DNA of 64,000 nucleotides, from contig CAISJV010000017.1 in assembly GCA_903885795.1 (NCBI GenBank), positions 1-64,000 on the forward strand, written 5' to 3'. Source of the DNA: an uncultured delta proteobacterium. Its GTDB lineage: Bacteria > Desulfobacterota > Syntrophia > Syntrophales > UBA8958. Below, piece by piece: positions 2,160-41,851 of the stretch (its first letter is position 1; each line of letters begins with the position of its first letter). Under the pieces are notes generated by a model. The model did not search any database. It was given only the letters and a program-made list of their open reading frames with translations, and had not been told where the DNA came from. Made by a program: the position numbers and the translations under genes.

Positions 2160-2444
2160 TTATATCGCAGCACAGTGTTTTTTGTCATAGATCCGTTGCT
2201 CCTCCTTCGACCTGGCAAAGAATTCAGCCACTACTTCTTCATGGGACAGCAAGGGTTTATCCTCCGGGCGGTGCTTTGTGATGGATGTTATTGAAGCTAT
2301 TGCGATGAGTGCGCCGATGGCTTCAATTTCGACAAATGCAGGCCGTTTGTCGCGAGCCCCGGTAATCAGCCGGGCTATAGCGTCTCGCGTTCTTTCGCTG
2401 ATTTCGTATTCGTCCCCGTTGATACATTTCAATAGAAATATCAT
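2160..2444 (-). CDS. Small hypothetical protein
   Basis: 94 aa, acidic and helical, starting MIFLLKCINGDEYEI. Its start overlaps the end of the O-like initiator gene by four bases (ATGA-type overlap), which supports translation coupling. The first 30 residues recall short phage proteins with an N-terminal beta hairpin, but no function can be assigned. Confidence 0.6.
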   Translation of the reverse strand: MIFLLKCINGDEYEISERTRDAIARLITGARDKRPAFVEIEAIGALIAIASITSITKHRPEDKPLLSHEEVVAEFFARSKEEQRIYDKKHCAAI

Positions 2445-3199
2445 ACTTTTACCACTCCTTCCGCCTTGCCGCCGTTATTGCCGTTATTGCTCTTCTTCAG
2501 CTCAAATATTCCCTGCCAACCGTTGACAATTGACTGATCCAGTATCAATTCTGCCGTTGTTTCTCCTGTCGTGTCGTCGTCACACAACTTTTTAAGCTTT
2601 ATGAAAAAGCGTTGGTAAGATTCCGCCGACAGGGGCTTTCTCAACTTTTTCCGTAATTGCACGAATTCCAGAAATGTGTTTTCGGGTACCCATTGTGGAA
2701 ATAGGAATGGGGCGGGAAATAGTGTGTGGTTTTCTTTTTCGATTACGGCCTCCGGAAAAGCATCCCTGTCTTTTGTAATAGTGTCTTTTGTAATAGTGTC
2801 TTTTGTGGGTACTGTTTTCGGTAACGCTAAATTACCTTTTTCGGTAACGCTGATTACCTTTTTCGGTAATGTTACCTTTTTCGGTAACGGTATCCATTCA
2901 TCATAATTCTTATTAAATTTATACACTTTGGCTGGCTCGTTACCTTTTTCAGTAACGCTGATTACCTTTTTCAGTAACAACCCTTTAATTGATTGAATGA
3001 TGTGCGGCTTTTTTAATCCAGTTATTTCAACAAACTGAGACAGGGATATTGCGTCTTCACATTTATTCCATCCATACGTTTTCCGAAGGATTGCATCTAA
3101 CACTTGCCTTTCTTCGCCGGGTATCCTGATATGACAAAGTGCATCCATTATCTCGTTCGCTATCGCTGTGTATCCGTCTTCCTTTTGTGGACTTGCCAT
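2441..3199 (-). CDS. Replication initiator, phage lambda O-like N-terminal domain
   Basis: 252 aa. Residues about 8-100 match the phage replication protein O N-terminal winged-helix family: GYTAIANEIMDAL, the RQVLDAILRKTYGW motif, then SLSQFVEITGL and a wing ending EPAKVYKFN. The centre (about 100-150) is low complexity and repetitive (LPKKV, VISVTEKGN, TKDTI) because the DNA there is an iteron array. The C-terminus would contact the helicase. In lambda and relatives O binds iterons inside its own gene and recruits DnaB. Here a DnaB-like helicase is encoded just upstream in the same operon, so this is very likely the element's initiator. Start chosen at the ATG after AGAGGAC. Confidence 0.85.
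   Translation of the reverse strand: MASPQKEDGYTAIANEIMDALCHIRIPGEERQVLDAILRKTYGWNKCEDAISLSQFVEITGLKKPHIIQSIKGLLLKKVISVTEKGNEPAKVYKFNKNYDEWIPLPKKVTLPKKVISVTEKGNLALPKTVPTKDTITKDTITKDRDAFPEAVIEKENHTLFPAPFLFPQWVPENTFLEFVQLRKKLRKPLSAESYQRFFIKLKKLCDDDTTGETTAELILDQSIVNGWQGIFELKKSNNGNNGGKAEGVVKV
2768..2806. repeat. 15-bp tandem direct repeats inside the initiator gene
   Basis: Two and a half copies of a 15-bp unit (GTCTTTTGTAATAGT in plus-strand reading) encode the TKDTI repeats of the O-like protein. They adjoin the iteron array at 2808-2978 and are T-rich on one strand, as in the easily melted part of phage origins. Confidence 0.75.
2808..2978. repeat. Iteron array, candidate origin of replication
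   Basis: Five 18-bp dyad-symmetric units fit RTTACCTTTTTCRGTAAY: 2831-2848, 2853-2870, 2871-2888, 2939-2956 and 2961-2978, plus a degenerate one at 2808-2825. The best copy (2871-2888) is GTTACC-TTTTTC-GGTAAC, a perfect 6-bp inverted repeat. Start-to-start spacings are 22, 18, 68 and 22 bp. A 50-bp AT-rich gap (2889-2938) separates the two clusters. Dyad iterons of this size inside an O-type initiator gene are the hallmark of lambdoid origins; that it acts as ori is inferred. Confidence 0.75.
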
Positions 3200-3240
3200 A
3201 ATTCGTCGTCCTCTGCTTGACGTGCTTCTGCTTTATTATG

Positions 3241-3294
3241 TGACGGAAAGGCGGCGCAGAAAACCGCCCTTTTCGGGAGCTACCCTATCCGTCA
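3241..3294 (-). ncRNA. Structured three-way-junction RNA element, copy A
   Basis: Read on the minus strand, 54 nt fold into an outer 7-bp helix (UGACGGA/UCCGUCA), linker UA, hairpin GGG-UAGCU-CCC, linker GAAAAG, a 5-bp hairpin GGCGG/CCGCC with a 9-nt loop, then UU before the closing strand. The linkers match copy B (4626-4677) exactly, while all three helices differ by compensatory changes. It lies in the gap between the helicase stop and the initiator start, about 42 nt before the initiator ATG. I do not recognise it as a known riboswitch or ribozyme. Confidence 0.7.
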
Positions 3295-3300
3295 ATTATT

Positions 3301-4581
3301 TTATCCTCTGTCGTCTTCATCCAGGAGTCGCGTGTAATCTGGGGCGTACCTGAGATACCCATGCCCTACGCGGCCATGCCTGTTTTTCCTGACGGTAACT
3401 TTCAACAGATTAGTGTCGTTTTTGTACCGCTCTAACCAGATGGCGACGTCCGCGGCGGCTGCAATCTCACCGGCGCCCTTGAATCCGATAATTCCGTTAG
3501 CCTCTCCCTTTGCCGCCTCGTTGGACACCTGGGACAGGACAATAACTGTTACTTCCATTTCTTTCGCCATCACCAGCAACTGAGGGGCTATCTTCGCCAT
3601 TCTTTCGTAGATACTTGAGCCGTCCACCCAAAGATTCTGGACGTAATCAATAACCACAATGTCGAGACCATTTTTTGCCTTGAGTTTTGTGGCTGTCTTT
3701 TCGATGTCGCCGTACCTGTAGAGATTGTCGTAGAGGTATAGGTTTGCTGCACGAAACCGGTCCTTGGCGGCGATGAGCCTGTTGTATTGGTGGATTTGCA
3801 ACGGCAGATTGTCTTCGATGCAATACGATGGTATTTCGGAGTCGTTCGATAAAAAGCGCAACATATACTGCTGCGTAGACATTTCGGTGGAGAAGACAGC
3901 GATACCTGGATTGCCTTGCCGATACAAACGGCTGATCAAGTCGCCTGCCCAAAAAGACTTGCCGACACTTGTATATCCCCCCGCTACGTATAGACGACCG
4001 GGAGCAATTCTTCTTACGGTTCTTCCAAGCACTTCGTAACACGGGTCCAGACCAGTAACGCCGGCATCTATGTTGCGTTCGAGATCGAGCAGAACGTCAG
4101 CGGAGGTGGACGTCGTAACAGGACGCGGAATATCTATGGACTGAAACTTTTTTATGGCAGCCTTTGTGATGTCCTCCGTAGAACCACCTCGTTCGGATGC
4201 TGCTTCTGATACGTCTTTAGCCCCGGCAATGATCGCTCTGCGAACCGATTTCTCTTTTACTATTTTCGCATAGTGAGTAGCATTAGCCGATGACGGGCAG
4301 CTATCCAGCAGGGCGGCAATAAAAACGTGCCCTCCGGCTGATTTCAGTGTCCCATCGTCCTGTAGTCGGCTTGCAACTGTAAGGGAATCGATCGGGATAC
4401 TTTCTTCCGTCAGATTCAAAAACGTGATGAAGATCAGGCGCGATGAGGACGAGTAGAAATCGTGTTCACCGATTATTTCGCGAATCGAATTGAGGCACTT
4501 TCCAGAATCGAGAAGAACAGCACCAAGCACCGCATGTTCTGCTTCTATGCTATGCAGGGAAAGGGGATCGGCGTTCTTCAT
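3301..4581 (-). CDS. DnaB-like replicative helicase
   Basis: 426 aa. The N-terminal domain (SIEAEHAVLGAVLLD) is that of DnaB-family helicases. The RecA core has Walker A GGYTSVGKS, H1a FSTEMS, Walker B DIVVIDYVQNL, H3 VTVIVLSQVS and a late KNRHGRVG arginine-finger region. It would unwind DNA 5'-3' at the fork once loaded by the O-like protein, as in phages such as P22 that encode both. It is slightly shorter than chromosomal DnaB (about 460-470 aa). A TTG start 12 bases upstream (4593) is possible, but GGAGG sits almost on it, so I prefer the ATG at 4581. The leader contains the structured element copy B. Confidence 0.9.
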   Translation of the reverse strand: MKNADPLSLHSIEAEHAVLGAVLLDSGKCLNSIREIIGEHDFYSSSSRLIFITFLNLTEESIPIDSLTVASRLQDDGTLKSAGGHVFIAALLDSCPSSANATHYAKIVKEKSVRRAIIAGAKDVSEAASERGGSTEDITKAAIKKFQSIDIPRPVTTSTSADVLLDLERNIDAGVTGLDPCYEVLGRTVRRIAPGRLYVAGGYTSVGKSFWAGDLISRLYRQGNPGIAVFSTEMSTQQYMLRFLSNDSEIPSYCIEDNLPLQIHQYNRLIAAKDRFRAANLYLYDNLYRYGDIEKTATKLKAKNGLDIVVIDYVQNLWVDGSSIYERMAKIAPQLLVMAKEMEVTVIVLSQVSNEAAKGEANGIIGFKGAGEIAAAADVAIWLERYKNDTNLLKVTVRKNRHGRVGHGYLRYAPDYTRLLDEDDRG

Positions 4582-4625
4582 TTTTTGCCACAAACCTCCG
4601 TTCTTTGGTCCGGTTAGTATTTAAG

Positions 4626-4677
4626 TGGCGGAAAGCTGCCCGGAACGCAGCCTTTTCGAGAGCGACTCTATCCGCCA
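4626..4677 (-). ncRNA. Structured three-way-junction RNA element, copy B
   Basis: 52 nt with the same architecture as copy A (3241-3294): outer helix UGGCGGA/UCCGCCA, linker UA, hairpin GAG-UCGCU-CUC, linker GAAAAG, hairpin GCUGC/GCAGC with a 7-nt loop, linker UU. It lies about 45 nt before the DnaB-like start. Position 3 of the outer helix changes from A-U to G-C between copies, and both inner stems also change in pairs. Confidence 0.7.
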
Positions 4678-22596: not shown

Positions 22597-22782
22597 ATGG
22601 GAAAGTCCAATGAATATGCCGTAATCGTCATTGATACCCACGGGTGTGAGCTTGAGGCGACCCGAGCCGCCCGCGCAAGACTCCTGATGAAAAAGGGCCG
22701 AGCGCGGATGTTGTGCCCGCATCCATTCACGATACAACTACTCGAAGAAACGAAAAACGATGGAGACACTAAGAGCATCTAA
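22597..22782 (+). CDS. Free-standing RRXRR (IscB PLMP-type) domain protein
   Basis: 61 aa. The whole protein aligns with the RRXRR domain found at the N-terminus of IscB-like proteins: VIVIDTHGCEL, ARARLLMKKGRARML, PHPFTIQLLEE. The PLMP box is degenerate (ELEA). No HNH or RuvC part follows and no guide RNA-like sequence is obvious. Its end overlaps the traC start by 23 bases, so it is co-translated with the transfer ATPase. The domain is thought to bind nucleic acid in IscB; its role here is unknown. Confidence 0.7.
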   Translation: MGKSNEYAVIVIDTHGCELEATRAARARLLMKKGRARMLCPHPFTIQLLEETKNDGDTKSI

Positions 22783-25165
22783 GATAATGCTGAACCGGCA
22801 GCCGTTCTCGGAATTTCTGCCCTACCTTGCCTACAACGAAATTAGCAAGGCGTTCATCCTCGACTATGGCGTCGGCTTCGTCTATGAGTGTAGTCCCCTG
22901 CCCTATCCAAGTTCGGGCTCGGTATCCACTCTGAGGGGCCTGTTTGAGTCGCCCTTTCCACCGGGAACATCGCTTCAAATAACCATTTATACCTCCAGGC
23001 AGATTGGTCCGCACCTCGATTCCTACGTAATGTACAGGGAGAACACGCACGGCAATTCCATATTCACAGATCTGGCCCGGCAGCGAGCTGAGTTTCTGCG
23101 ATCCGGTGTAGACAAATCTTTGTTCAAGGGCTGCGATATAAGGGTCAGGGAATTCCGGCTGCTCGTTTCGGCATTGGTGCCCTGTTCGCACACTCCGCAG
23201 GCTATCGACAATATTCTGAAAAATACGCTGCCTTCATTGAAGGAGACAGTGTACCAATCCCTGAACACAGCGGGCCTTGCGCCTGTTGCCTTTGGACCGG
23301 AAGAACTGCTCAACACGTTGAGTGAGTTGCTTAACCCAGGGCATTTCCTCAACGACGCCCTCCGTTACGATGATCGGGTGCCACTGAAGGACCAGGTAAT
23401 TTATGCGGACAACGAAATTCAGGTGAAAAAGGACAGTCTTATCGTTGACGGGTATCACGTCAAGAGCTACACGGTAAAACAATATCCCCGCGATTGGGAT
23501 GTATCGGGAATTATTAATTATACCGGCGACCTGTACCAGAACGTAAAGCAGATAGGGTGCCCTTTCTTGATTACCATGAACTGTGAATATCCCGATCCCC
23601 TTGCATCGAGACGCGAGATACAAAAGAATTCCATGATGGCAAGTTATCAGGCTTTTGGGCAGTTTGCGAAATGGCTTCCCCAGACGGCGATGAGGAAGGA
23701 GCAGTTCGACTTGTTTTCCGTGGCTCTGGAAAATGGCGAATCTCCGTTTTATGGATATATGAACCTGTTCCTTTATGCCAAGGACGAAGGCGAGGCATCC
23801 GCGATGTCTGGCATTTGTCAGAGTCTTTACCGGGGCATGGGGTTCATCTTGCAGGAAGACACATACATCATGTTGCCACTTTTTTTGCAGTCCCTTCCCA
23901 TGTCGTACCAGGCGGCGATGCAAAAAGACCTGCGAAGGCGAAGAACCTTCACCACTTCGAACGTGTCCGAGCTTGCGCCGATGCAGTCCGATTGGAAGGG
24001 TTCAGGCCGCCCTGTTCTGTCCCTTGTTAGCCGTCGCGGGCAGCTTCAGTTTATAGACGTATTCAGCAACCGTAAAGGTGGGTACTCAGGGGTCGTATGC
24101 GCCGGCACGGGAGCGGGCAAGTCGTTCTTCATCAACGAGATGATTGTGTCCTATCTTGGCCTGGGGGCGAAGGTATGGGTGATCGACGTAGGCAGAAGCT
24201 ACGAAAAGCTGTGTTCGTTTTTGGATGGAGACTTCCTGGTCTTTGACACCGCGTCTAACATCAACGTCAATCCTTTCACAAGCGTTGTTGACATCAATGA
24301 GGAAATGCCCATGCTCAAGGCGATAATCGCTCAGATGGCGTCGCGTACTCCTCTCGATGATCTTTCCATGGCTAATCTTGAGGAAGCCATAAAGGTAAGC
24401 TACGCGGAAAACGGTTCAGCGACGAGCATAACCAATATAGCTGATTACCTGTCCCAAAAAACGGACGCCCGGCAGGTTGACCTCGGCAAGAAGCTCTTCC
24501 CCTACACGGCTTCCGGGTCATACGCCTCCTTTTTCGAGGGTGCAAGCACGTTTTCCCCGAAGCAGGGCTTTGTCGTTCTGGAATTGGAGGAATTAAAATC
24601 GAAGAAGGATCTTCAGGAAGTGGTTCTGCTCACGCTGGTCTACAAGATTCAGCAGGACATGATGCAACGGGGGGAGAACAAGCTGGTGATCATCGATGAG
24701 GCATGGGATCTGCTCACCGGTGGCAATACGAGTCAGTTCATGGAAACCGGATATCGCCGGTTCAGGAAATATGGCGGCGCCTGCTTTTCGATCACCCAGA
24801 GCATAAACGACTTCTACAAGATTCCGGCTGGCGTGGCGATCATTGAGAACTCCGACTATATGTTTTTACTCAGGCAGCGTCCTGAGAGCATCGAGGCTTT
24901 GAAGCAGTCTCAGAAGGTGTCGCTTTCGGAGGGGATGTACGAACTGCTCAAATCGGTACATACGGATACAGGCAACTATTCGGAAATATTTCTATATACT
25001 CCGGACGGCATAGCCATTGGCCGCCTTGTGGTGGACCGCTTCACACAGCTACTATATACCTCGAAGGCCGATGAGTACATGACACTCAAGCAGTTGACCG
25101 ACAGCGGCATGACTATTAGAGACGCCATCCTGGAAACAATCAAAATAGAGCAGGCCCGGTTATAA
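22760..25165 (+). CDS. traC: TraC/VirB4-family T4SS ATPase
   Basis: 801 aa, normal for F-type TraC. The N-terminal TraC domain (about 15-270) is followed by a RecA/HerA-like motor: Walker A CAGTGAGKSFF, a linker with VIDVGRSYEKL, Walker B NKLVIIDEAWDLL, arginine and sensor motifs ETGYRRFRKYGG and SITQSINDF. It powers pilus assembly and transfer at the inner membrane. Confidence 0.93.
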   Translation: METLRASKIMLNRQPFSEFLPYLAYNEISKAFILDYGVGFVYECSPLPYPSSGSVSTLRGLFESPFPPGTSLQITIYTSRQIGPHLDSYVMYRENTHGNSIFTDLARQRAEFLRSGVDKSLFKGCDIRVREFRLLVSALVPCSHTPQAIDNILKNTLPSLKETVYQSLNTAGLAPVAFGPEELLNTLSELLNPGHFLNDALRYDDRVPLKDQVIYADNEIQVKKDSLIVDGYHVKSYTVKQYPRDWDVSGIINYTGDLYQNVKQIGCPFLITMNCEYPDPLASRREIQKNSMMASYQAFGQFAKWLPQTAMRKEQFDLFSVALENGESPFYGYMNLFLYAKDEGEASAMSGICQSLYRGMGFILQEDTYIMLPLFLQSLPMSYQAAMQKDLRRRRTFTTSNVSELAPMQSDWKGSGRPVLSLVSRRGQLQFIDVFSNRKGGYSGVVCAGTGAGKSFFINEMIVSYLGLGAKVWVIDVGRSYEKLCSFLDGDFLVFDTASNINVNPFTSVVDINEEMPMLKAIIAQMASRTPLDDLSMANLEEAIKVSYAENGSATSITNIADYLSQKTDARQVDLGKKLFPYTASGSYASFFEGASTFSPKQGFVVLELEELKSKKDLQEVVLLTLVYKIQQDMMQRGENKLVIIDEAWDLLTGGNTSQFMETGYRRFRKYGGACFSITQSINDFYKIPAGVAIIENSDYMFLLRQRPESIEALKQSQKVSLSEGMYELLKSVHTDTGNYSEIFLYTPDGIAIGRLVVDRFTQLLYTSKADEYMTLKQLTDSGMTIRDAILETIKIEQARL

Positions 25166-25555
25166 GGAAGATTATAATCGTGACTCATTGTCCGGCACTT
25201 GGAGTGAAAGGAGACAACCATTCAAAAGTACCGTCTGATCGGCAATCAATTGCTTTGCGTATGCGGCGCCACGAATGAATTGGCTTGCCGCTTTTACCGG
25301 CGGTTTTCCGCAGCCGAGCCGCGTTGCTCCTATCACGAGTCCTACCGGTGTATCACGCAGTTGCCATTGAAGACGCGTGGGAAAACCCGGACGTAGGCGC
25401 TCGGGCATCCCTAGTGGTGGGAAACAAATGAGGGGATGGTGGAAGGATTATCCTAAACCGGGTGGAAAAGAAATGCCGGATACAGGGAATCAGGACCTCC
25501 CTGTCTATCAGGTCCATCAAGTTCGAGTCCTTTAAGTAAAGAAAGGTTATTCAAT
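25166..25555 (+). other. Gap after traC with two possible tiny ORFs
   Basis: Two doubtful frames: 25220-25396 (58 codons, Cys-rich: CVCGATNELAC, RCSYHESYRC) has a good AAAGGAG but begins with ATT, a very rare start. 25428-25535 (35 aa, MRGWWKDYPKPGGKEMPD) begins with ATG without a clear site. No terminator is evident. Confidence 0.3.
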
Positions 25556-26500
25556 ATGTTAGCATCATTATTTATAGTGCCCCTGGCGCTTATGGCAGCA
25601 CTGGGAACCAACCAGGTTCTTTACGATTATCCGTCCAATACCGTAACCTATGCTGCTGGTATGACCTACGTTATTTGTAGTGACTGCCCCGGTCCGACGC
25701 CCAAGCAGCTCCTGCCGGTGAAGCCACCCGTCAGGCAGGGCGGCCAGGTTAAAACAGCGCAGCCTGGGCCGCCACTCAGACTGGACCCGAACAAGATTCT
25801 CTTCACGCAAACGCAGGTACTGGCTTTAGGCAAAGGGAACCCCTCGCAGGCAGGCCTGGTCCCACTGGCCACGGTGAACAAGGTGCAAAGAGAACAACCG
25901 GCAGGAGCCACGCAACAGACGGTTGCAATTGTCCCATCGGCACCGCAACAGACGCTCCGGGAAACCCTGTATTTTGAGTATAATTCGTCAAAACTGCCTG
26001 ACCTCGACAAAATGAAGCTGAATGAGATCAAACAGGCGGCGGCGACAGGCGCAAGAGTGACGATAACAGGCTTTACGGACAAACGGGGAAATAAGCGGTA
26101 CAATAACCGGCTTGCCCTGTTGCGGGCAAAAGCGGTCAGGCAGTACCTCGGCCTCGGGAAGGAAGCCGTCGTGATCGGAAAGGGCAAGTGCTGTTACCTG
26201 GATGAAACACATCAAGGAAAGAACAGACGGGTGGAAGTGGTAATCGAGAGGGAAGCGCAGAATGTGCAAAAGGCGGTAGATTTGAAGCCGACTCAGCCAG
26301 TTGCGAATGTTACAGCGTCGCCTCTACCTCAGCAACATAATGTCGTCCCTGCCGAACCTCCAAGGATCGTAGAGAGCGAGGAAAGCAATGTCGCCCCTGC
26401 CGAACCTTCGAAGATCAAAGAGGAGAGTGAGGAAAATGAAGCCCCTGCCGATTCGGGCGGCTCGGAGACTGTAAGCGAGGCCGTCTCCGCTCTAAGATAA
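25556..26500 (+). CDS. OmpA C-terminal-domain protein of the transfer operon
   Basis: 314 aa. N-terminal hydrophobic signal or anchor, a Pro/Gln-rich linker, then a peptidoglycan-binding OmpA-like domain (about 140-230): LYFEYNSSKLPDL, VTITGFTDKRGNKRYNNRLALLRAKAV and NRRVEVVIERE. The tail is a Pro/Glu-rich repeat (VVPAEPP.IVESEESN). Probably anchors the mating apparatus to the cell wall. Its stop lies inside an AGATAACATCC motif shared with the PKD genes. Confidence 0.85.
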   Translation: MLASLFIVPLALMAALGTNQVLYDYPSNTVTYAAGMTYVICSDCPGPTPKQLLPVKPPVRQGGQVKTAQPGPPLRLDPNKILFTQTQVLALGKGNPSQAGLVPLATVNKVQREQPAGATQQTVAIVPSAPQQTLRETLYFEYNSSKLPDLDKMKLNEIKQAAATGARVTITGFTDKRGNKRYNNRLALLRAKAVRQYLGLGKEAVVIGKGKCCYLDETHQGKNRRVEVVIEREAQNVQKAVDLKPTQPVANVTASPLPQQHNVVPAEPPRIVESEESNVAPAEPSKIKEESEENEAPADSGGSETVSEAVSALR

Positions 26501-26645
26501 CATCCCTTTAACACCATGGGGGGAAACAGGGTCTCATGCTCCTGCACAGGAAAGGCAAGCAAGCGCCTTACTGAAGACAGCCGGAGGGAACTCGCCGCTT
26601 CGAGTTTTTGAACTCAACACTGCTCCGCACCTCGCCCAGGCATAA

Positions 26646-26693
26646 CCGGACAACAAAAAGCAGGATGGGAAATCTTCCTGTCCGGCCTTTTTT
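26646..26693 (+). terminator. Terminator after the OmpA-like gene
   Basis: CCGGACA pairs with TGTCCGG around an inner CAGGA/TCCTG hairpin; T6 follows. Confidence 0.75.
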
Positions 26694-26713
26694 ATTCCCG
26701 GCAGGAACCGGAT

Positions 26714-26724
26714 GGAAGTAGTAC
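26714..26724 (+). promoter_or_regulatory. GGAAGTAGTAC motif, PKD gene 1
   Basis: 87 bp before the ATG, at the same distance as the copy before the second PKD gene. Confidence 0.4.
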
Positions 26725-26810
26725 ATAAACAATACCCCCCGTCGGGCGCTTGGATAACATCCTTTTTTCACCCTCAATAAATACAAACTTTAGAAGGAGG
26801 AACACAAGTC

Positions 26811-29513
26811 ATGAACCGTGTACGCACCAAATTGTTGATGTTCGTACTGTCTGTCCTGATACTTGTCACGGCAGCGGGCAGCGCATGGGGTGGGTCCGTA
26901 AGTGGTCCCACAACGGCTGTCGAAGGGGACACAAAGACCTATTCTGTATCTGGTTGGAGTGCATCGTATAATACATTTACGTGGTTACTTCACTTCGATG
27001 GCGATATAGTAAATCAGGCGGCAGCGTCAACCAGCCATAGTGAGACCTTCCGGGAAGGCCCAGGCAGCTATGGCATCGAAGTAAGAGTTAAAAACATATC
27101 GACTGGGCGAATTGATGCATATTTAAATACTCAAGTAACGGTTACGGCACGTCCTGCACCTACACTCACAATGGATGGTGCCAGAACGACTACCGCAGGG
27201 AATACAGAACGATACACGGTGGCTCACAATTCGAGTTTGCCTGTGACAAGCAGATGGTCGGTCGATGGCACAGTTATCACCGGCGCTGTCGGCACTTCTG
27301 TTGACATTCCATTCGCAACGAAGGGCACTTATAACGTGTCTGTCACCGTCTATCCGACCGGGTATCCCAATTCTAATTCGACGGTAACTATTCCGGTAGT
27401 AGTTTCACCTGCCGCACCTACGCTCACGATGACCGGTTCCACAACTAGTATTGAAGGGGAGACGAAACAATACACCGTAACTGCCAATACGAGCGATCCT
27501 GTGACAATTGAATGGTCGGTCAACGGCACAGTGATCAATGGTGCTGTCGATACTTCTGTTGATATACCCTTTGCGACAGTGGGCGCCCAGAACGTAGGCG
27601 TCACCGTATTTCTGACTGCTTATCCCAGTGCTATCGCAACTGGTACGATCCCGGTAACGGTTTCTGCATATCCAGCACCCACGATCACGATGGCCGGTCC
27701 CACAACGAGTACTGAAGGTGAAACGAAGCAATATACAGTGACAACCAGTACGAGCGATCCTGTGACGATCGAATGGTCGGTCAATGGCGCTGTGATCACT
27801 GGCGCTGTCGGCACTTCTGTTGAAATTCCCTTCACGGCGGCGGGACATTCTATCGTAGGTGTCACCGTAGCTCCGACTGCTTATCCCAATTCTAAAAGGA
27901 CGGGTTCTATCCCGGTAACGGTTTCGGCATACCCGGCCCCCACGATCACAATGACAGGCTCAACAACGAGTTTCATAGGCGAGACGAAACAATATACGGT
28001 TACTCACGATTCGAGTTCACCTGTGACAATCGAGTGGAAGCTTGACGGATCTGTGATCAACGGTGCTGTCGATACTTCTGTTGGTGTCACCTTCGCGACA
28101 AAGGGAAATTCTAGCGTAGCAGTCACCGTGTTTCCGACTGCGCATCCTAATTCTAAAAAAACGGGTGCGGTTCCGGTAACGGTTTCTGGGTATCCCGCTC
28201 CGACGATCACGATGGCCGGACCCAGAACGAGTACCGAAGGGAAAACGGAGCAATATACGGTTACTCACGATTCGAGTTTACCTGTGACAATCGAATGGGA
28301 TGTCAAAGGCGTCAAGTACCAGGGAAGTCCGGTTGACGTTCCCTTCCCTGCGGCGGGCACCTATAATGTGGCTGTCACCGTCTATCCTACTGCGTATCCT
28401 GATTCTAAAAGGACGGGTACTATCCCGGTAACGGTTTCGGTAGTTAAAGCGCCGCTAGTCGCAATCGCAACTATAAAGGGTGGTTATGTGGGTACTCCGA
28501 TAGACCTCATCGCAAAAGCCACGGTTCAGAGCACCGGCATACCTCTCGTGGTAAATTGGGATATGCCTGACGGAACAAGTGTCAATGCCTTGAACGCGAC
28601 ATACACACCTAAATTGGCAGACGTGGGCAAAGCCACTTTCAAATTTTCTGCATATCCTGAAGGGTTTCCGAATAAAAAGAAAGAGGGGGCGTTCCAAGTT
28701 CCGATAACGAATTACGTTTTCCCCTCTTTCACGCTCAAGAATTATACCAGAAACACCGGTATAGTGCCCCATTTCGTCTTTTTCGCTGCGGAGGCGAATC
28801 TCCGAGGGTTTACCGAGAAGTTGAGTTACTCGTGGGACATGGGTGACGGGGCGGTAATGCCGGATAAGAATAAGGCAAACTACACATACACCGAACCCGG
28901 CGAATATACGGTTACGCTAACTGTGAGCGACACGAGAGGCAATAGCAAAGTCGTTACTGACACGGTAAGCGTAACGCCGGTAGAGCTGATTTCCATTGAC
29001 GCCATTACGGTTAAAGGCACAAACCAATACATGAGGGCGCCGGTAGTTGGCATATTCAAGACGACTGTTTCCGGTGGTAATCCGAGGGTGGACCCGTATA
29101 GGACTTATGCCTGGACAGTCAACGGTCAGCCGACTGGACGGAATTCGAGTACGACGACCCATACTTTTACAGAGCCTGGTACGAATGAAGTCGGTCTTAC
29201 GGTGACATCGAAGAACGGACTTACTGGTTCAGGTACAACTACGGTTGAAATAACTCCCAATATACCGCCGGAATGTACAATTGAAGCCACGGATTATCCG
29301 GCGAGGAAGTACACAAAGCTCGTAGCGAAGTGCACTGATGCGGATGGCAGGATTCGAACGTCGAGTTGGGATCTTGGCAACGGCCAGACATCAAAATCCG
29401 GGATTATGTCAGTAAAATATATGGAAAGCGGAACCTACACGGTGTCCTTGACCGCCACTGACGATTCTGGCGGTTCGGTGACGGTTAGCAAGGACGTCGT
29501 GGTTCAAAGATAA
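26811..29513 (+). CDS. Giant secreted PKD/Ig-like repeat protein 1
   Basis: 900 aa. Sec signal peptide ending SAWG at about residue 30. A unique first module, then five tandem ~85-residue Ig-like repeats, each opening near APTITM.G.TTS.EGETKQYT and closing P.TAYPNSK.T..IPVTVS. The C-terminal ~350 residues hold other beta modules including a true PKD (SWDMGDGAVMPDKNKA, YTEPGEYTVTLTVSD). No transmembrane anchor or LPxTG. It is encoded within the transfer operon next to an almost identically ended paralogue, so a surface or extracellular role in mating contact is likely; large Ig-like proteins of IncHI plasmids are a known parallel. Confidence 0.85.
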   Translation: MNRVRTKLLMFVLSVLILVTAAGSAWGGSVSGPTTAVEGDTKTYSVSGWSASYNTFTWLLHFDGDIVNQAAASTSHSETFREGPGSYGIEVRVKNISTGRIDAYLNTQVTVTARPAPTLTMDGARTTTAGNTERYTVAHNSSLPVTSRWSVDGTVITGAVGTSVDIPFATKGTYNVSVTVYPTGYPNSNSTVTIPVVVSPAAPTLTMTGSTTSIEGETKQYTVTANTSDPVTIEWSVNGTVINGAVDTSVDIPFATVGAQNVGVTVFLTAYPSAIATGTIPVTVSAYPAPTITMAGPTTSTEGETKQYTVTTSTSDPVTIEWSVNGAVITGAVGTSVEIPFTAAGHSIVGVTVAPTAYPNSKRTGSIPVTVSAYPAPTITMTGSTTSFIGETKQYTVTHDSSSPVTIEWKLDGSVINGAVDTSVGVTFATKGNSSVAVTVFPTAHPNSKKTGAVPVTVSGYPAPTITMAGPRTSTEGKTEQYTVTHDSSLPVTIEWDVKGVKYQGSPVDVPFPAAGTYNVAVTVYPTAYPDSKRTGTIPVTVSVVKAPLVAIATIKGGYVGTPIDLIAKATVQSTGIPLVVNWDMPDGTSVNALNATYTPKLADVGKATFKFSAYPEGFPNKKKEGAFQVPITNYVFPSFTLKNYTRNTGIVPHFVFFAAEANLRGFTEKLSYSWDMGDGAVMPDKNKANYTYTEPGEYTVTLTVSDTRGNSKVVTDTVSVTPVELISIDAITVKGTNQYMRAPVVGIFKTTVSGGNPRVDPYRTYAWTVNGQPTGRNSSTTTHTFTEPGTNEVGLTVTSKNGLTGSGTTTVEITPNIPPECTIEATDYPARKYTKLVAKCTDADGRIRTSSWDLGNGQTSKSGIMSVKYMESGTYTVSLTATDDSGGSVTVSKDVVVQR

Positions 29514-29556
29514 CATCCATAAGTCTCCGAGGAGTTTCCTGGGGGTAAAAGAGTAA

Positions 29557-29593
29557 GGTCGGATGGGATATTTACCCTGTCCGGCCTTTTTTA
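29557..29593 (+). terminator. Terminator after PKD gene 1
   Basis: GGTCGGA.GGG pairs with CCC..TCCGGCC; T6 follows. Confidence 0.8.
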
Positions 29594-29613
29594 TGCCGGC
29601 AGGAGAACCTGCT

Positions 29614-29624
29614 GGAAGTAGTAC
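29614..29624 (+). promoter_or_regulatory. GGAAGTAGTAC motif, PKD gene 2
   Basis: Same position relative to the ATG as in copy 1 (87 bp). Confidence 0.4.
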
Positions 29625-29710
29625 ATACACGATACCCCCCGTCGGGCGCTTGGATAACATCCTTATTTCACCATCAAATAATACAAACTGAATAAGGAGG
29701 AACACAAACC

Positions 29711-32700
29711 ATGAAACATTTACGCAAGAAACTGTTCTTGTTCGTTCTGTCTGTCCTGCTGATGCCAGTGTTTGCAGGTATCGCCTGGGCGGCGACAGTC
29801 AATGGTCCTGCAACGCTTTATCATGGGGATGTTGGTGCGTATACAGTATCAAATTACGGAAGCAACACTTCTTGCTCATGGTCATGGAAAATCGCCGTTT
29901 CCCCTTACACTACCATTAATTCTTCTACAAAATTACCATCTGCAACAATGTACAGTAATTACTACAGTGATCCTGGGAAATATTCGATGCAGGTAAGCTG
30001 TACAGGTGGTACCACTTCCGCAGGACAAAAAGCGGTAACGATCGTAGCCATGCCAGCTCCCACAATCACTGGCCCAATCACCGCTGTTACAGGAGCAACA
30101 AATCAATATACAGCAGTACAACACACCGTAACTACTAACTATGTTAGCTGGGCAGTTGATGGTACGGTCATCTCTGCTGGTCCAGCAGCTCCCCTTAGCC
30201 AGACTTTTTCTACACTGGGCGACCATACCGTCACAGCAAAAGTCTATAGTGTAAACAATGCTGCTAATGCTAACGCATCGACAAATATTACGGTAACAGT
30301 GGCACCTCAGGCACCAACAATCACACTGGCCGGTCCCGCGACGAGTATAGTCGGGGAAACGAAGCAATATACGGTTACACACAATTCGACTGATCCAGTA
30401 ACGATCGAGTGGAAGCTCAATGGCACGGTAATCGATGAAGCAGTTGGAACTTCGGTTGATATTCCTTTCCCAACGTCAGGGACTCATAACGTGGCAGTAT
30501 CCGTCTATCCGCCCGGGTATCCCAGTGCGGTCGCAACGAAATCTACCTCGGTGGTGGTTTCCGAATATCCTGCCCCGACAGTCACGCTGTCCGGATCCAC
30601 AACAAGTTATGTAGGAGAAACAAAGCAATACTCGGTGACTCACGATGCGAGCTTACCTATAACGATCGAGTGGACGCTAAATGGCACGGTGATTGAGGGA
30701 GCGACTGGAGCCTCAGTTGACATCCCCTTCGCAACGGCAGGCACCCAAAACGTGGCAGTATTCGTCTATCCGACAGAGTATCCAACTTCGGTCGCAACGA
30801 AATCTACTTCGGTGGTAGTGTCTGAACCTCCTGCCCCGGCGGTAACGCTGACCGGCCCCAGTACGGCTTACGTGGGCGACACGAAAACATACACCGCGAC
30901 AGCCACTAGCGTGACTGGTGATCCGATGACATTAGAGTGGATGCAATATTTCGATCCTTCTGCCCCAAATTACAACGGCACGTTTATCGCGGGGGGCCTC
31001 ACTCTCGATCTTAACTGCCCGTTTGCAAAATCCGACCAAATATGGGTCAAGGCATATCCCACAGGATATCCCAGTCAAGCCACGCTAAAAAGTCTATCTT
31101 TAGTTGTTTCACCCCGCCCCGCACCTACGGTGAGCATTGGAGTACCTTCTTCTTCGGCGACCAAAAGTGGTCCGATAAGCTACGTGGCAACTTACACCAA
31201 TGTCGGCACTGTAACCCTGGCTGATACCAATGTTACTTTGAACAAAACAGGGACGGCGAACGGGGTGTTAGCGGTAAGCGGTACGGGAAATTTAACTCGC
31301 ACGGTAACGATTTCAACTATTAGTGGCGATGGCACCCTGGGCATTTCCATTGCATCTGGCACAGCTATCAATGAGACGGGGAACAGTGCTGCTGCGGGTC
31401 CAAGCACGACCTTTACGGTAGATAATATCCCAACTATAACGCTGACCGGTCCCGCAATGAGTATCGAAGGGGAAACGAAACGATACTCCGTTACTCACAA
31501 TTCAAGCTTACCTGTAACGATCGAGTGGAAGCTAAACGATGTAGTGATCGAGGGAATTACCGGAACGACTGCTGACATTCTTTTCCCGGTAGCAGGATCC
31601 CAGAACGTAGCGGTCACCGTATATCCGAATGCATCCCCCATTTCAACCGCAACAGGTACCACCCAGGTAACGGTTTCGGGGTATCCCGCTCCGACGGTCA
31701 CACTGACTGGCCCCACAACGAGCATCGTAGGAGAAACGAAACAATATTCGGTGACTCACAATTCAGGTGATCCTGCAACAATCGCCTGGTCGCTAAACGG
31801 TGTCGTGATAGAAGGTGCGGTCGGCGCTTCTGTTGACATTCCCCTCGCAACGGCAGGTACATATACCATAGCAGTCACCGTTTATCCGACAGCTTATCCC
31901 AACTCCAAGGGTACGAGCACCAAGACGGTAGCGGTTTCCGAATATCCCACACCGATGATCACGATGGCCGGACCCACAACAAGTTATGTAGGAGAAACAA
32001 AGCAATATACGATGACCTCTACTTCGACCGATCCTCTGACGATCGCATGGACGCTTGACGGTACCGTAATTGATGGTGCAGTAGGAGCGTCAGTTGACAT
32101 TCCCTTTACGACGGTGGGCACCCAGTCCGTAGTTGTTTCTGTGTATCCAACTGCGTACCCCGATGCGGTCACAACGAAATCTACTTCGGTGGTGGTTTCA
32201 GAATATCCAGCCCCGACGATCACGATTGGTGGCCCCACGACGAGCACCGTAGGGGAAACGAAGCAGTACACGGTGACTCACGATTCGAGTTTACCTGTAG
32301 CAATCGCATGGTCGCTAAATGGTACCGTGATTGATGGCGCAACCGCTACCTCAGTGGACATTCCCTTTACGATGGTGGACATCCAGAACGTGGGAGTCAC
32401 TGTAAATCCGACGGCACACCCCAATTCAAAAAGGACAAGCACCGTTTCGGTATTTGTATCAGAATATCCCGCCCCGATGATTACGATAGCCGGTTCCACA
32501 ACAAGTATGGTTGGAGAAACGAAGCGATATACGGTTACTTCTACCTCGACTGACCCTCTGACAATCGCATGGTCGCTCAATGGCACTGTGATTGATGGCG
32601 CAGTGGGTGCCTATGTTGACATCCCCTTTGCAACGGCTGGTTCCCAAAACGCGGCAGTAACAGTCTATCCGACTGCTTATCCCAATTCAAAAGCGACAAG

Positions 32701-34561
32701 CACCATTTCGGTAGTGGTTTCTGAGTATCCGTCGCCCACGATCACGCTGGACGGTCCCAGAACGAGTATCGAGAGGGAAACAAAACGGTACTCGGTTGCT
32801 CACAATTCGAGTTTACCAGTTACAATCGAATGGGATGTCGATGGAGTCAAATACCATGACAGTCAGATTGACGTTACCTTCGCAAGACCGGGCACCTATA
32901 ACGTGGCTGTTACCGTCTATCCGAATACGTATCCTAATTCCAAAAAGACAGAGACTGTTTCGGTAATGGTTTCGGAATATACCGCACCCATGATCAGCAT
33001 AGCCGGTCCCGCAAAGAGTATCGAAGGGGAAACGAAACGATACTCGGTTACTCACAATTCAAGCTTACCTGTAACAATTGAATGGAAGATCGATGGCTCT
33101 GTGATCACTGGTGCTGTCGGCACTTCTGTTGACGCTACCTTCCCGGCAGCAGGCAGCTATGACGTAACAGTAACCGTCTATCCGACTGCTTATCCAAATT
33201 CTACCAGGACGGGGACTATCCCGGTAGTGGTTTCACTATATCCTTCTCCGACAATCACGATAGACGGCCCCAGAACAAGTAGCGTAGGGAAAACGGAACA
33301 ATATACGGTTACTGCCGGTTCGAGTATCCCTGTAACAACCGAATGGGATGTCAACGGCGTCAAATACCAGGGCACTTCTGTTGACGTTAGCTTCGCGACG
33401 GCGGGTAGCTATTACATGGGCGTCACCGTATATCCGACTGCATATCCCAATTCTAAAAGAACGGCAACGTTATTGGTATTGGCTTTGCAAATTAAAGAGC
33501 CGCTGGTCGCGCTCTCCACTATCAAGAGTGGTGAGGTAGGTTCTCCAATAAATCTCAGCGCAACGGTCAAGAGTATGAGCGAAGAATTACCACTCGTGGT
33601 GAAGTGGGAGATGCCTGACGGAACGAGTGTCGATGCCTTAACCGCGACATACACGCCGCGTCTGGAAGATGTGGGCAAAGCCACTTTCACATTTTCCGCA
33701 CATCCTGAAGGGCATCCGAATATCAAGAAAGAGGCGGCGTTACAAATTCCGATAACGAAATACGTTTTCCCCACTTTCAAACTCAAGGCTTACCACAAGC
33801 CGACCGGCATAGTGCCCTGGACAGTCATTTACGTCACGGACGCTAATCTCCTTGGCATTACCGAGAAGTTAAGTTATTCATGGGACATGGGCGATGGAGC
33901 GGTTATGCCGGATAAGAATAAGGCAACCCATACATATACCGAACCTGGCGAATATACGGTTACGCTGACTGTGAGCGACACGAGAGGCAATAGCAAAGTC
34001 GTCACTGACACGGTAAATGTAACGCCGGTGGCGCCGATCTCTATTGACTCCATTGCAGTTAAAGGCACAAACCAATACATGAGGGCGCCGGTGGTTGGCA
34101 TATTCAAGACGACTGTTTCCGGTGGTAATCCGAGGGTGGACCCTTATAGGACTTATGCCTGGACAGTCAACGGTCAGTCGACAGGACGAAATTCAAGTAC
34201 GACGACCTATACTTTCACGGAGCCTGGTACGAATGAGGTCGGTCTTACGGTGACATCAAAGAACGGACTTACTGGTTCAGGCACAACTACGGTTGAGATA
34301 GCTCCCAATATACCACCGGAATGTACGATTGAGGCCACGGATTATCCAGAGAGGAAGTACACGAAGCTCGTAGCAAAGTGCACTGATGCGGATGGCAGGA
34401 TTCGGGCGTTGAGTTGGGATCTTGGCAACGGTCAAACGGTAAAAGTCCAGACTGTGCTTGCCAAATACGCAGAAAGCGGAACATACACGGTATCATTGAC
34501 TGCAACAGACGATTCTGGCGGTTCGGTGACGGTTAGCAAGGACGTCCCGGTTCAAAGATAA
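29711..34561 (+). CDS. Giant secreted PKD/Ig-like repeat protein 2
   Basis: 1616 aa paralogue of the 900-aa protein: signal peptide ending AWA, a unique N-terminal module, about 12-13 tandem Ig-like repeats (openings APTVTLSGSTTSYVGETKQY, TPMITMAGPTTSYVGETKQY and similar) with one divergent module near 470-570 (SIGVPSSSATKSG), and the same C-terminal half (WDMGDGAVMPDKNKA, GTNQYMRAPVVGIFKTTVSG). Repeats differ by many point changes but keep frame, consistent with expansion by unequal crossing-over. Likely an extracellular stalk or mating adhesin. Confidence 0.85.
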   Translation: MKHLRKKLFLFVLSVLLMPVFAGIAWAATVNGPATLYHGDVGAYTVSNYGSNTSCSWSWKIAVSPYTTINSSTKLPSATMYSNYYSDPGKYSMQVSCTGGTTSAGQKAVTIVAMPAPTITGPITAVTGATNQYTAVQHTVTTNYVSWAVDGTVISAGPAAPLSQTFSTLGDHTVTAKVYSVNNAANANASTNITVTVAPQAPTITLAGPATSIVGETKQYTVTHNSTDPVTIEWKLNGTVIDEAVGTSVDIPFPTSGTHNVAVSVYPPGYPSAVATKSTSVVVSEYPAPTVTLSGSTTSYVGETKQYSVTHDASLPITIEWTLNGTVIEGATGASVDIPFATAGTQNVAVFVYPTEYPTSVATKSTSVVVSEPPAPAVTLTGPSTAYVGDTKTYTATATSVTGDPMTLEWMQYFDPSAPNYNGTFIAGGLTLDLNCPFAKSDQIWVKAYPTGYPSQATLKSLSLVVSPRPAPTVSIGVPSSSATKSGPISYVATYTNVGTVTLADTNVTLNKTGTANGVLAVSGTGNLTRTVTISTISGDGTLGISIASGTAINETGNSAAAGPSTTFTVDNIPTITLTGPAMSIEGETKRYSVTHNSSLPVTIEWKLNDVVIEGITGTTADILFPVAGSQNVAVTVYPNASPISTATGTTQVTVSGYPAPTVTLTGPTTSIVGETKQYSVTHNSGDPATIAWSLNGVVIEGAVGASVDIPLATAGTYTIAVTVYPTAYPNSKGTSTKTVAVSEYPTPMITMAGPTTSYVGETKQYTMTSTSTDPLTIAWTLDGTVIDGAVGASVDIPFTTVGTQSVVVSVYPTAYPDAVTTKSTSVVVSEYPAPTITIGGPTTSTVGETKQYTVTHDSSLPVAIAWSLNGTVIDGATATSVDIPFTMVDIQNVGVTVNPTAHPNSKRTSTVSVFVSEYPAPMITIAGSTTSMVGETKRYTVTSTSTDPLTIAWSLNGTVIDGAVGAYVDIPFATAGSQNAAVTVYPTAYPNSKATSTISVVVSEYPSPTITLDGPRTSIERETKRYSVAHNSSLPVTIEWDVDGVKYHDSQIDVTFARPGTYNVAVTVYPNTYPNSKKTETVSVMVSEYTAPMISIAGPAKSIEGETKRYSVTHNSSLPVTIEWKIDGSVITGAVGTSVDATFPAAGSYDVTVTVYPTAYPNSTRTGTIPVVVSLYPSPTITIDGPRTSSVGKTEQYTVTAGSSIPVTTEWDVNGVKYQGTSVDVSFATAGSYYMGVTVYPTAYPNSKRTATLLVLALQIKEPLVALSTIKSGEVGSPINLSATVKSMSEELPLVVKWEMPDGTSVDALTATYTPRLEDVGKATFTFSAHPEGHPNIKKEAALQIPITKYVFPTFKLKAYHKPTGIVPWTVIYVTDANLLGITEKLSYSWDMGDGAVMPDKNKATHTYTEPGEYTVTLTVSDTRGNSKVVTDTVNVTPVAPISIDSIAVKGTNQYMRAPVVGIFKTTVSGGNPRVDPYRTYAWTVNGQSTGRNSSTTTYTFTEPGTNEVGLTVTSKNGLTGSGTTTVEIAPNIPPECTIEATDYPERKYTKLVAKCTDADGRIRALSWDLGNGQTVKVQTVLAKYAESGTYTVSLTATDDSGGSVTVSKDVPVQR

Positions 34562-40374: not shown

Positions 40375-40514
40375 TCGCCGAACATCAAAGGGCGGTGGAC
40401 ATGTGAATTATTCACGGCGTGGCCCGGCCATACGGGACTCAAAGAAAGATGAACTTGACACTATCAGTCGATAAATTTTATAATCCCCCTAACAAACTCG
40501 AGGGGGTGAGGTGT

Positions 40515-41630
40515 ATGAAGGGCGGTATATATAGCGATGATAAATGCCCTGTGTGCGGAGGTATGTATGTCGATAACCATCTAACCGCCCTTGTCTGTTC
40601 GAAGCATCCTAAGTGTCGTGCAGCGAGTTTTAGAGTCAAATTCGGGGACGTCAAGAAACGATTTAGGGCATACGACGATGCAAGTCGCTTTCTAAACGGT
40701 GTCAGATTCAAAACAGACGAGCTCACCTTTGACCCCCGTGATTATAAACGAAATAATCCTTTGTCACTGCTAAATCTGTCAACGAAGTGGCTGGAATACA
40801 AGAAATCGGAAGTCCGTCCCCACTCTTACCGCTCCATCTCAAACCACGTTGATAAGGCTCAAGTATATTTCGGGCATATGAACGTCAAAGACATTCGCTA
40901 CGGAAACCTTGAAGATTTTACTAAAAGCCTGTCTCTGGCCGACAAGACGAGACACAATATTCTTTCCACCATCCATTCGTTTTTCGTATGGCTAAAGCGA
41001 CGCCAGGAAATAACTGAAGTGCCGGAGTTTCCCGTTATTTCGTATGATCTTGGGTATCGCCGGACGGTTGACAAGGCGACACAGATCGCCATAGTCGAGG
41101 AAGTGAAGCGGATAGCCCCAGAAGAAAAGACATATATAGGCATTTTGCTCTTGACGACTTATTTCAGCATCAGACCTAATGAAATGAGGATTCTCAAGGA
41201 AGGCAACATTGACATGGGGAACGGATATATCTACATTCCCGCGTCGGATTCAAAGACGGAATATAAGGCCATACCTCTAATCAAAGAGGACATTGAGCTT
41301 TTCCGGTCCTTCAATTTATCACCCTTCCCTGAAACACATTTCTTCCGCCATGAGGACGGACGGGATTTTGGAAGAAATCACTTTTACCGCTACTGGAAAA
41401 AGGCATGTAAGAATTTGGGAGTTGAGGACGTGGATTTATATGGCGGGACTAAGCACTCATCTGCTAGAGCATTAAGGCGCATCCACTCCCCCGAAGAGAT
41501 CCAGAGGGCCATGATGACAAAAAGCAACAAAGCATTTGATAGATATTTTAAAGTCGAGGCGGATGATGCCCGGACGGTGTATCAGAGCAACCGGGGAGTA
41601 GTTATTCCATTGAGAAAGGTGGGACCGTAA
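40515..41630 (+). CDS. int: Tyrosine recombinase (element integrase)
   Basis: 371 aa from the ATG behind GAGGGGGTGAGG. N-terminal zinc ribbon (CPVCGG and CSKHPKC), core-binding domain (about 85-165), then the catalytic domain: Arg in YFSIRPNEMR (about 220), Lys in SDSKTEY (about 247), box II GTKHSSAR and nucleophile Tyr in FDRYFK (about 344). Box II normally reads GTRHS; here the second catalytic Arg is Lys. The gene ends about 60 bp from the 3' end of tRNA-His, its probable attachment site. Confidence 0.9.
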   Translation: MKGGIYSDDKCPVCGGMYVDNHLTALVCSKHPKCRAASFRVKFGDVKKRFRAYDDASRFLNGVRFKTDELTFDPRDYKRNNPLSLLNLSTKWLEYKKSEVRPHSYRSISNHVDKAQVYFGHMNVKDIRYGNLEDFTKSLSLADKTRHNILSTIHSFFVWLKRRQEITEVPEFPVISYDLGYRRTVDKATQIAIVEEVKRIAPEEKTYIGILLLTTYFSIRPNEMRILKEGNIDMGNGYIYIPASDSKTEYKAIPLIKEDIELFRSFNLSPFPETHFFRHEDGRDFGRNHFYRYWKKACKNLGVEDVDLYGGTKHSSARALRRIHSPEEIQRAMMTKSNKAFDRYFKVEADDARTVYQSNRGVVIPLRKVGP

Positions 41631-41688
41631 TGGGACCGCTTTTCAGCCCCCACAAAAAGCTATTGCACTTGATATTATTAAGGAATAA

Positions 41689-41766
41689 TGGGGTGAGTGA
41701 AGGGATTTGAACCCTCGGCCTCCGGGGCCACAACCCGGCACTCTAACCAACTGAGCTACACCCACC
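41689..41766 (-). tRNA. tRNA-His (GTG)
   Basis: Cloverleaf with the extra G at -1 opposite C73 (GGTGGGTG...CACTCACC), anticodon loop TTGTGGC, T-arm GGTTCAAATCC and encoded CCA. The 3' end faces the integrase gene, the usual layout for tRNA-targeted elements. Confidence 0.93.
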
Positions 41767-41774
41767 ATATTCTC

Positions 41775-41851
<77 letters not shown>

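Follow-up and report, generated by a model that had tools for sequence, protein, structure and literature searches.

Two similar, apparently structured stretches of DNA precede two phage-type replication genes in an uncultured delta proteobacterium, and the question that they raise is whether they belong to a described class of RNA and what such an RNA would do in front of a gene. They lie within a 64,000-nucleotide stretch (the window, by which we mean the whole of the DNA analysed), where an initial annotation made from the letters alone had placed them on the minus strand at 3241–3294 (copy 1) and 4626–4677 (copy 2). Both positions were confirmed, as was the proposal of one three-way-junction architecture, since each copy folds alone into it, with predicted energies of −24.5 kcal/mol for copy 1 (z = −2.83) and −22.8 kcal/mol for copy 2 (z = −2.27) relative to dinucleotide shuffles; the opposite strands fold as well (z = −1.86 and −2.90, respectively). 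The shared core pattern, allowing up to 3 mismatches, occurs at just these two sites within the 64-kb window and was absent from 100 shuffles.

The fold and the alignment to relatives give the following anatomy, read along the minus strand. In copy 1, helix P1 (3288–3294/3241–3247) opens through the linker UA (3286–3287) into P2 (3283–3285/3275–3277, loop UAGCU at 3278–3282), which is joined by GAAAAG (3269–3274) to P3 (3264–3268/3250–3254, loop 3255–3263) and by UU (3248–3249) back to P1. Copy 2 repeats this order with P1 at 4671–4677/4626–4632, UA at 4669–4670, P2 at 4666–4668/4658–4660 (loop UCGCU, 4661–4665), GAAAAG at 4652–4657, P3 at 4647–4651/4635–4639 (loop GUUCCGG, 4640–4646) and UU at 4633–4634, so that the three linkers are indeed identical in the two copies. 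The functional unit runs 3′ beyond these ends as far as the start codons, that is from 3241 to 3197 in copy 1 and from 4626 to 4579 in copy 2.

Each copy stands in the leader of one replication gene, and Pfam and PHROG matches bear out the initiator and helicase originally assigned. Copy 1 leads a Phage_rep_O replication protein (2441–3199, minus strand, start codon 3197–3199; PF04492, E = 1.5e-23; O-like in PHROG), and copy 2 leads a DnaB-like helicase (3301–4581, minus strand; Pfam DnaB and DnaB_C, also matched in PHROG), for which we favour the AUG at 4579–4581 as start, since the UUG at 4593, used by the mechanically called reading frame, overlaps the Shine-Dalgarno (SD) sequence. Genes for helicase, O, DnaB, exonuclease-like and recombination-directionality-like proteins surround both copies, and with an integrase (40419–41630) next to two tRNA genes they are consistent with an integrated phage-like element. 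The integrase gene adjoins tRNA-His and tRNA-Arg genes (40419–41851), a likely integration site of the element. The O-like gene itself holds six 18-nt direct repeats of the TTACCTTTTTCGGTAACG type (2809–2979, 83–100% alike), and in lambda-type origins the iterons likewise lie inside gene O. Elsewhere in the window, a stand-alone response-regulator receiver domain (PF00072, 5407–5898) is encoded beside the phage replication genes, and frames of 801, 900 and 1616 amino acids at 22760–34561 lack a PHROG match at E ≤ 1e-8.

The elements had been described as matching no named class, and this is the claim that did not survive. At the Rfam gathering threshold only tRNAs are reported in the window and neither copy appears, but below it copy 1 matches int-alpA (RF02996) over its full length at 29.3 bits against a gathering score of 35.8 (E = 1.1e-4 in a 141-base search), in an alignment that contains the three-way junction with its UAG and CGAAAA linkers; copy 2 gave no match to RF02996 up to E = 5. 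A covariance model of the junction only, R1, was made from six loci, none of them in the window (three above the RF02996 cut-off and three below). It detected both copies (36.8 and 36.1 bits; E-values of 8.6e-6 and 1.2e-5 in 145,509 bases searched) and had no other match in the window at E ≤ 1. Because R1 was made without any window sequence and still finds both, and because of the sub-threshold RF02996 match, the window copies are, by these sequence comparisons, divergent relatives of int-alpA; they fall below the curated cut-off and so are not filed as members. Across the whole genome, R1 finds five copies at E ≤ 1, and a search with RF02996 adds a sixth, weaker copy on contig 88. Among relatives of this genome, 46 of 100 carry an RF02996 match at E ≤ 1 and 21 of 100 one above the cut-off, compared with 2 and 0 of 14 control genomes. 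The annotation had staked its case on further copies with preserved pairing, which exist, and on there being no relative in Rfam, where one is found, although below its cut-off.

The likeness to int-alpA comprises the junction, the UAG and CGAAAA linkers and the sizes of P1–P3. The window copies differ in scoring under the family cut-off and in position, as they lead the O and dnaB genes and not a gene between an integrase and a regulator; a siting between integrase and alpA genes, which the family name would imply, is not seen for either. The Rfam model, typed 'Gene; sRNA', moreover stops at a segment that we call e1, leaving the elements further 3′ (e2 and P4, described below) and any role in cis outside it.

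To describe the class more broadly, genome loci were gathered through RF02996, R1 and pattern searches, and viral loci through a scan of IMG/VR with two patterns that fixed the inner P1 and junction letters (73 and 38 stretches) and left the P2 loop, P3 and all sequence 3′ of P1 free. An earlier IMG/VR pattern was dropped, as its 31 stretches were mostly one recurring coding sequence and none had the junction. Parsing succeeded for 83 of 87 unique viral cores (of the 4 others, at least one, L125, is by eye a good element), while of 95 genome loci, among them the window, 36 (some of these being duplicates) went unparsed because the script rules did not cover their junction letters or their P2 pairing. 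The resulting 130 unique elements were reduced to 121 non-redundant ones (77 viral, 44 genomic; 9 removed as redundant at 80%), some of which are probably chance matches (e.g. L345, L348, L370, L392, L398 and L410). The genomic rows are lightly selected, as the RF02996 model covers e1; the viral rows are not, and their statistics agree. Looser patterns returned at least 120 stretches each from viruses and genomes, and among 80 of each searched with R1 at E = 0.1, 15 viral and 5 genomic loci matched. At E ≤ 0.01, R1 also had matches in 39 of 155 genomes belonging to the class and, in a sample of 395 from the phylum, in 49. This RNA class is widespread in phages and integrated elements, and poorly described.

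Selection on structure, previously argued from compensating changes between the two copies, was upheld on a wider basis. In an alignment of 29 sequences, made up of the two window copies and 27 other loci, pairing holds in 95.3% of cells, against 68.7% after shuffling, both sides are changed in 13 of 14 pairs, and the covariation score is 0.534, compared with 0.114 for shuffled and at most 0.116 for slid alignments; the alignment was fitted to the model, and these figures therefore lean towards it.

The elements also keep a tight spacing to the genes that follow them. A reading frame starts 18–75 nt past P1 in 114 of the 121 elements, with a median distance of 36 nt (quartiles 34–39; 95 AUG, 10 UUG and 9 GUG), and 7 elements have none. 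Because the start was selected with a preference for AUG, for long frames and for a purine run, the same search was repeated at random places in the same loci, where frames were found in 74 of 121 on average. The contrast is larger for starts 30–42 nt after P1 (95 own versus a mean of 18 at random places, of 121) and for a GG-bearing purine run before the frame (105 versus 25). What the frames encode is varied: 107 of the 114 led proteins were scanned, and these matched 51 Pfam families at E = 0.001, none of them in more than 7 proteins. HNH and other endonucleases are the most frequent, with phage endonuclease families matched by at least 24 of the 107, a lower bound because candidates were picked by eye and then tested singly in three sets (9/10, 10/10 and 5/10, the remaining five of the third set being deliberate picks of other kinds). 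Further examples are replication initiators, integrases, antirepressors, glycosyltransferases and, in a few cases, structural proteins, and the class is thus not tied to replication genes. One protein family of unknown function (47–58% identical) recurs in phylum genomes at L312, L430 and L042, each time led by this RNA.

This breadth bears on the idea, suggested by the replication genes that adjoin both copies in the window, that the element acts as a single-stranded-DNA replication or primosome site, or as a self-cleaving ribozyme. Endonuclease, integrase and structural genes are led in the same manner, and the variation among elements tracks translation signals. Hammerhead ribozymes have a conserved CUGANGA core, which, as already noted in the annotation, is absent from both window elements, and Rfam reports no ribozyme there. 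We give almost no credence to either function.

Upstream of the element, a same-strand frame ends near P1 in 105 of 114 leaders, at a median of 12 nt before the core, and in 64 of 118 cases it ends 3–20 nt before the core, compared with 4.5 of 121 at random places. In the window, 6 nt separate the dnaB stop from the beginning of copy 1. These distances would suit a translational coupling in which a ribosome that finishes the upstream gene intrudes into P1 and thereby decides the pairing downstream. However, compact phage operons may produce the same closeness by themselves, the control places having been random positions and not gene junctions, and for window copy 2 the gap to the preceding frame is 41 nt. 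We consider coupling as the whole explanation rather unlikely.

The P3 loop is complementary both to e1, shortly 3′ of P1, and to e2, which overlaps the SD sequence and lies in the loop of a further hairpin, P4. Between P1 and the start codon, 77 of 114 leaders contain two non-overlapping perfect matches to the loop, each 5 nt or longer, and 37 do not, whereas exchanging loops among leaders gave a mean of 8.5 and a maximum of 17 in 1000 swaps. At least one perfect 5-nt match occurs in 107 of the 114 (mean 33.8 when swapped) and two matches of 4 nt in 103 (43.6 when swapped). Scored over all 121 elements, the best match averages 15.46 for own against 12.06 for swapped loops (maximum permuted mean 13.11), and the second, disjoint match 12.94 against 9.29 (maximum 10.18). 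The viral rows alone give 15.75 versus 11.89 for the best and 13.04 versus 9.09 for the second match; the genome rows are less strong (14.94 versus 12.68, maximum 14.11, and 12.77 versus 10.05). The loop is variable in sequence (CCUG, CCC, GCCUU, CUGC, UUCCGG, GAGACUCC and more), and e1 and e2 vary along with it. Since own matches exceed those of swapped loops and both partners change with the loop, P3 does not carry a generic anti-Shine-Dalgarno sequence.

Of 83 leaders with a recognised SD-like stretch, 61 have an e2 that overlaps it by 3 nt or more. The P4 stem around e2 was scored in the 90 leaders whose two chosen matches both lie 5′ of the start (24 of the 114 were omitted from the test); it reaches 9.78, compared with 6.22 when the flanks are shuffled (maximum 7.59) and 5.79 when arms are swapped between leaders. 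In the same 90, the loop matches e1 more strongly in 56 and e2 more strongly in 21, with no difference in 13.

Both window copies have these parts. In copy 1, UUCUGC of the P3 loop (3256–3261) is complementary to 3226–3231 and 3211–3216: it forms 6 bp with its full complement, the putative decoy e1 (GCAGAA, 3226–3231), and 6 bp, one of them G-U, with e2 (GCAGAG, 3211–3216). The latter lies in the loop AAGCAGAG (3211–3218) of P4 (3207–3222; CGUC at 3219–3222 with GACG at 3207–3210), overlapping the SD-like GAGGA at 3209–3213. In copy 2, UCCGG of the P3 loop (4640–4644) forms 5 bp with the putative decoy CCGGA (4609–4613) but only 4 bp with e2 (CGGA, 4597–4600), which lies inside the SD sequence ACGGAGG within the loop GAACGGAGG (4595–4603) of P4 (4591–4607; CAAA at 4604–4607 with UUUG at 4591–4594). 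This e2 was assigned by eye, the automatic search having preferred a longer match inside the coding sequence. The putative P4 stem is 4 bp in each copy.

The int-alpA family offers a view of annotated genes behind the same RNA. At E ≤ 1, its consensus matches 215 of 5,426 complete E. coli genomes, with 24 of these matches spanning 80% or more of its length, and among the matches listed its neighbours are an integrase on one side and a hypothetical gene on the other, the annotation being blank beneath it. In L449 and L450, the order is integrase, RNA, led gene and a helix-turn-helix regulator that is not annotated as alpA. In the E. coli and Klebsiella-phage examples read, e1, e2 and P4 are recognisable by eye, and the E. 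coli examples also carry the P2 loop GACG. Eleven annotated records, from E. coli and one Klebsiella phage, were chosen from the matches and fetched after the idea had been formed, and do not represent all 215 genomes; in 10 of the 11 the annotated start lies 76–81 nt past UAG, and in the eleventh (L498) 187 nt past it. A trans-acting small RNA, as the Rfam type of int-alpA would have it, is very improbable given this tight distance to the start codon and the fact that the loop matches are private to the downstream segments of each copy.

Our preferred reading, to which we give a probability of roughly three in four, is that the element acts in cis as an intercistronic leader and regulates how the following gene is translated, with e1 serving as an SD decoy for the P3 loop. 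The P1/P2/P3 junction would present the P3 loop, which could pair either with e1, free and just 3′ of P1, or with e2, the SD sequence in the P4 loop. Pairing with e2, a loop-loop kissing contact, would hide the ribosome-binding site (OFF), and pairing with e1, which mimics the gene's own SD sequence, would free it (ON). We infer that the balance between the two is the regulated step, with P2-loop kissing, the ribosome ending the upstream gene and a ligand of the conserved UA/GAMAAG junction as candidate inputs. The O and dnaB genes of the window would be restrained likewise. The more frequent strength of e1 makes an open default state possible, and the two pairings might have a purpose other than switching.

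The third of these inputs is the core of a distinct explanation, a riboswitch or protein operator in which the UA/GAMAAG junction would recognise a ligand or protein, with the P3 loop, e1 and e2 as the expression platform. Among RF02996 hits, the helices and loops vary while UA and GA[A/C]AA are almost invariant (in the viral rows these letters were fixed by the search pattern), and mutually exclusive pairings are typical of expression platforms. However, the led genes are mostly unrelated, with no shared pathway pointing to a ligand, and the fixed junction bases may be structural; we hold this explanation as possible though doubtful. In translational riboswitches with SD-pseudoknots, SD availability is set by loop pairing, as it would be in the proposed decoy switch, which differs in its explicit SD-like decoy and in having no known ligand or common pathway.

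A functional parallel to the decoy leader is found in T4-type homing endonucleases (I-TevI, segB and Aeh1 mobE), in which an RNA structure hides the ribosome-binding site (PMC3014915, PMC2988022). Such hairpins restrain free-standing or intron-borne endonucleases within polycistronic phage mRNA, and each is a single hairpin with a late promoter inside, whereas the present leaders comprise a junction RNA and a loop with two alternative partners and stand before many kinds of gene. Because T4-type endonucleases are held back in this manner, restraint of endonuclease genes would be a reasonable purpose for the leaders too.

The P2 loop shows a second regularity. It contains a self-complementary tetramer in 87 of the 121 elements, and 14 of the 16 possible tetramers occur; a null drawn from the pooled composition gave a mean of 18.2 and a maximum of 32, and shuffling within loops gave 32.4 and 49 (2000 rounds). 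Counting distinct loop sequences only, 38 of 52 are self-complementary, against 8.6 and 15.7 under the two nulls. By comparison, P3 loops carry such a tetramer in 16 of 121 elements, and the background downstream is 564 of 10,514 tetramers. A GACG loop is present in 13 further leaders and neither feature in 21; window copy 1 belongs to the first group (AGCU, 3278–3281), while window copy 2, whose UCGCU lacks 4-nt self-complementarity, belongs to the last. Twelve of the 36 unparsed genome loci, read by eye, comprised 8 self-complementary loops, 3 with GACG and 1 with neither (L040). Within the 87 loops, the palindrome is most often preceded by 1 base and followed by none (35), or flanked by 2 and 1 (28) or 1 and 1 (11), and the base 3′ of it, where present, is A in 34 of 45.

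Self-complementarity is kept while the letters change among homologous led genes, as in L312, L430 and L042 (GGCC, GCGC and GAUC) and in the integrases L350 and L141 (UGCA and GCGC). Other homologous pairs share one loop (e.g. L418/L304, L351/L396 and L352/L168), and L108, L409, L083 and L424, also among homologous led genes, have loops that are not self-complementary. Copies within one genome differ in their P2 loops in G000, G001, G058, G059, G083 and G093 and have the same loop in G028 and G084. Two other roles for the loop were considered and set aside: pairing elsewhere in the same leader, where a second occurrence of the tetramer was seen in 13 of 82 leaders, compared with 18.7 for swapped tetramers, and a genome-wide shared tag, as 40 stretches from 18 genomes, read by eye, had mixed loops, a pattern that speaks neither for cross-talk nor for enforced difference. 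In L458 (G473) and L480 (G000), P2 is several pairs longer, with the palindromic loop apparently kept (UGAUCA and UCAUGA, by eye).

The excess of self-complementary loops, their spread over so many tetramers, their persistence across homologues, the lack of partners within the leader and the GACG loops together suggest leader-leader kissing. The further step, that kissing between leaders of the same gene would bias the P3 loop between decoy and SD sequence, we put forward only tentatively, and where the mRNAs are scarce a contact of 4 bp may be a weak one. Palindromic hairpin loops and GACG tetraloops are linked to RNA homo- and heterodimers in retroviruses (PMC516450), and the P2 loops resemble them in both features. 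They differ in belonging to bacterial leaders, in being mostly 4-nt palindromes of changing sequence and in that their dimers are putative, and common descent is not suggested. The cases seen in a review of RNA dimers, bicoid and oskar mRNA and phi29, are not of this leader kind.

The class is therefore already known by name, the int-alpA motif reportedly originating with Weinberg and others in 2017. In the open-licence literature searched, int-alpA appears only as a table name and in a statement that it was not followed up, the accession RF02996 does not occur, and searches on kissing or dimeric leaders, ribosome-binding-site hairpins, GACG loops and alpA with noncoding RNA returned no description of the mechanism. 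Neither a role in cis nor the decoy, P4 or the self-complementarity of the P2 loop was found in that literature, and these features would turn a motif named for its location into a concrete proposal for a translational switch, giving a job to an RNA family that had none there. If the P2 loop does dimerise mRNAs, the result would be a bacterial translation switch gated by contact between one mRNA and another, through which a phage gene would sense the abundance of its own transcript, or the crowding of its template, with neither a protein nor a metabolite, in effect an RNA copy-number sensor.
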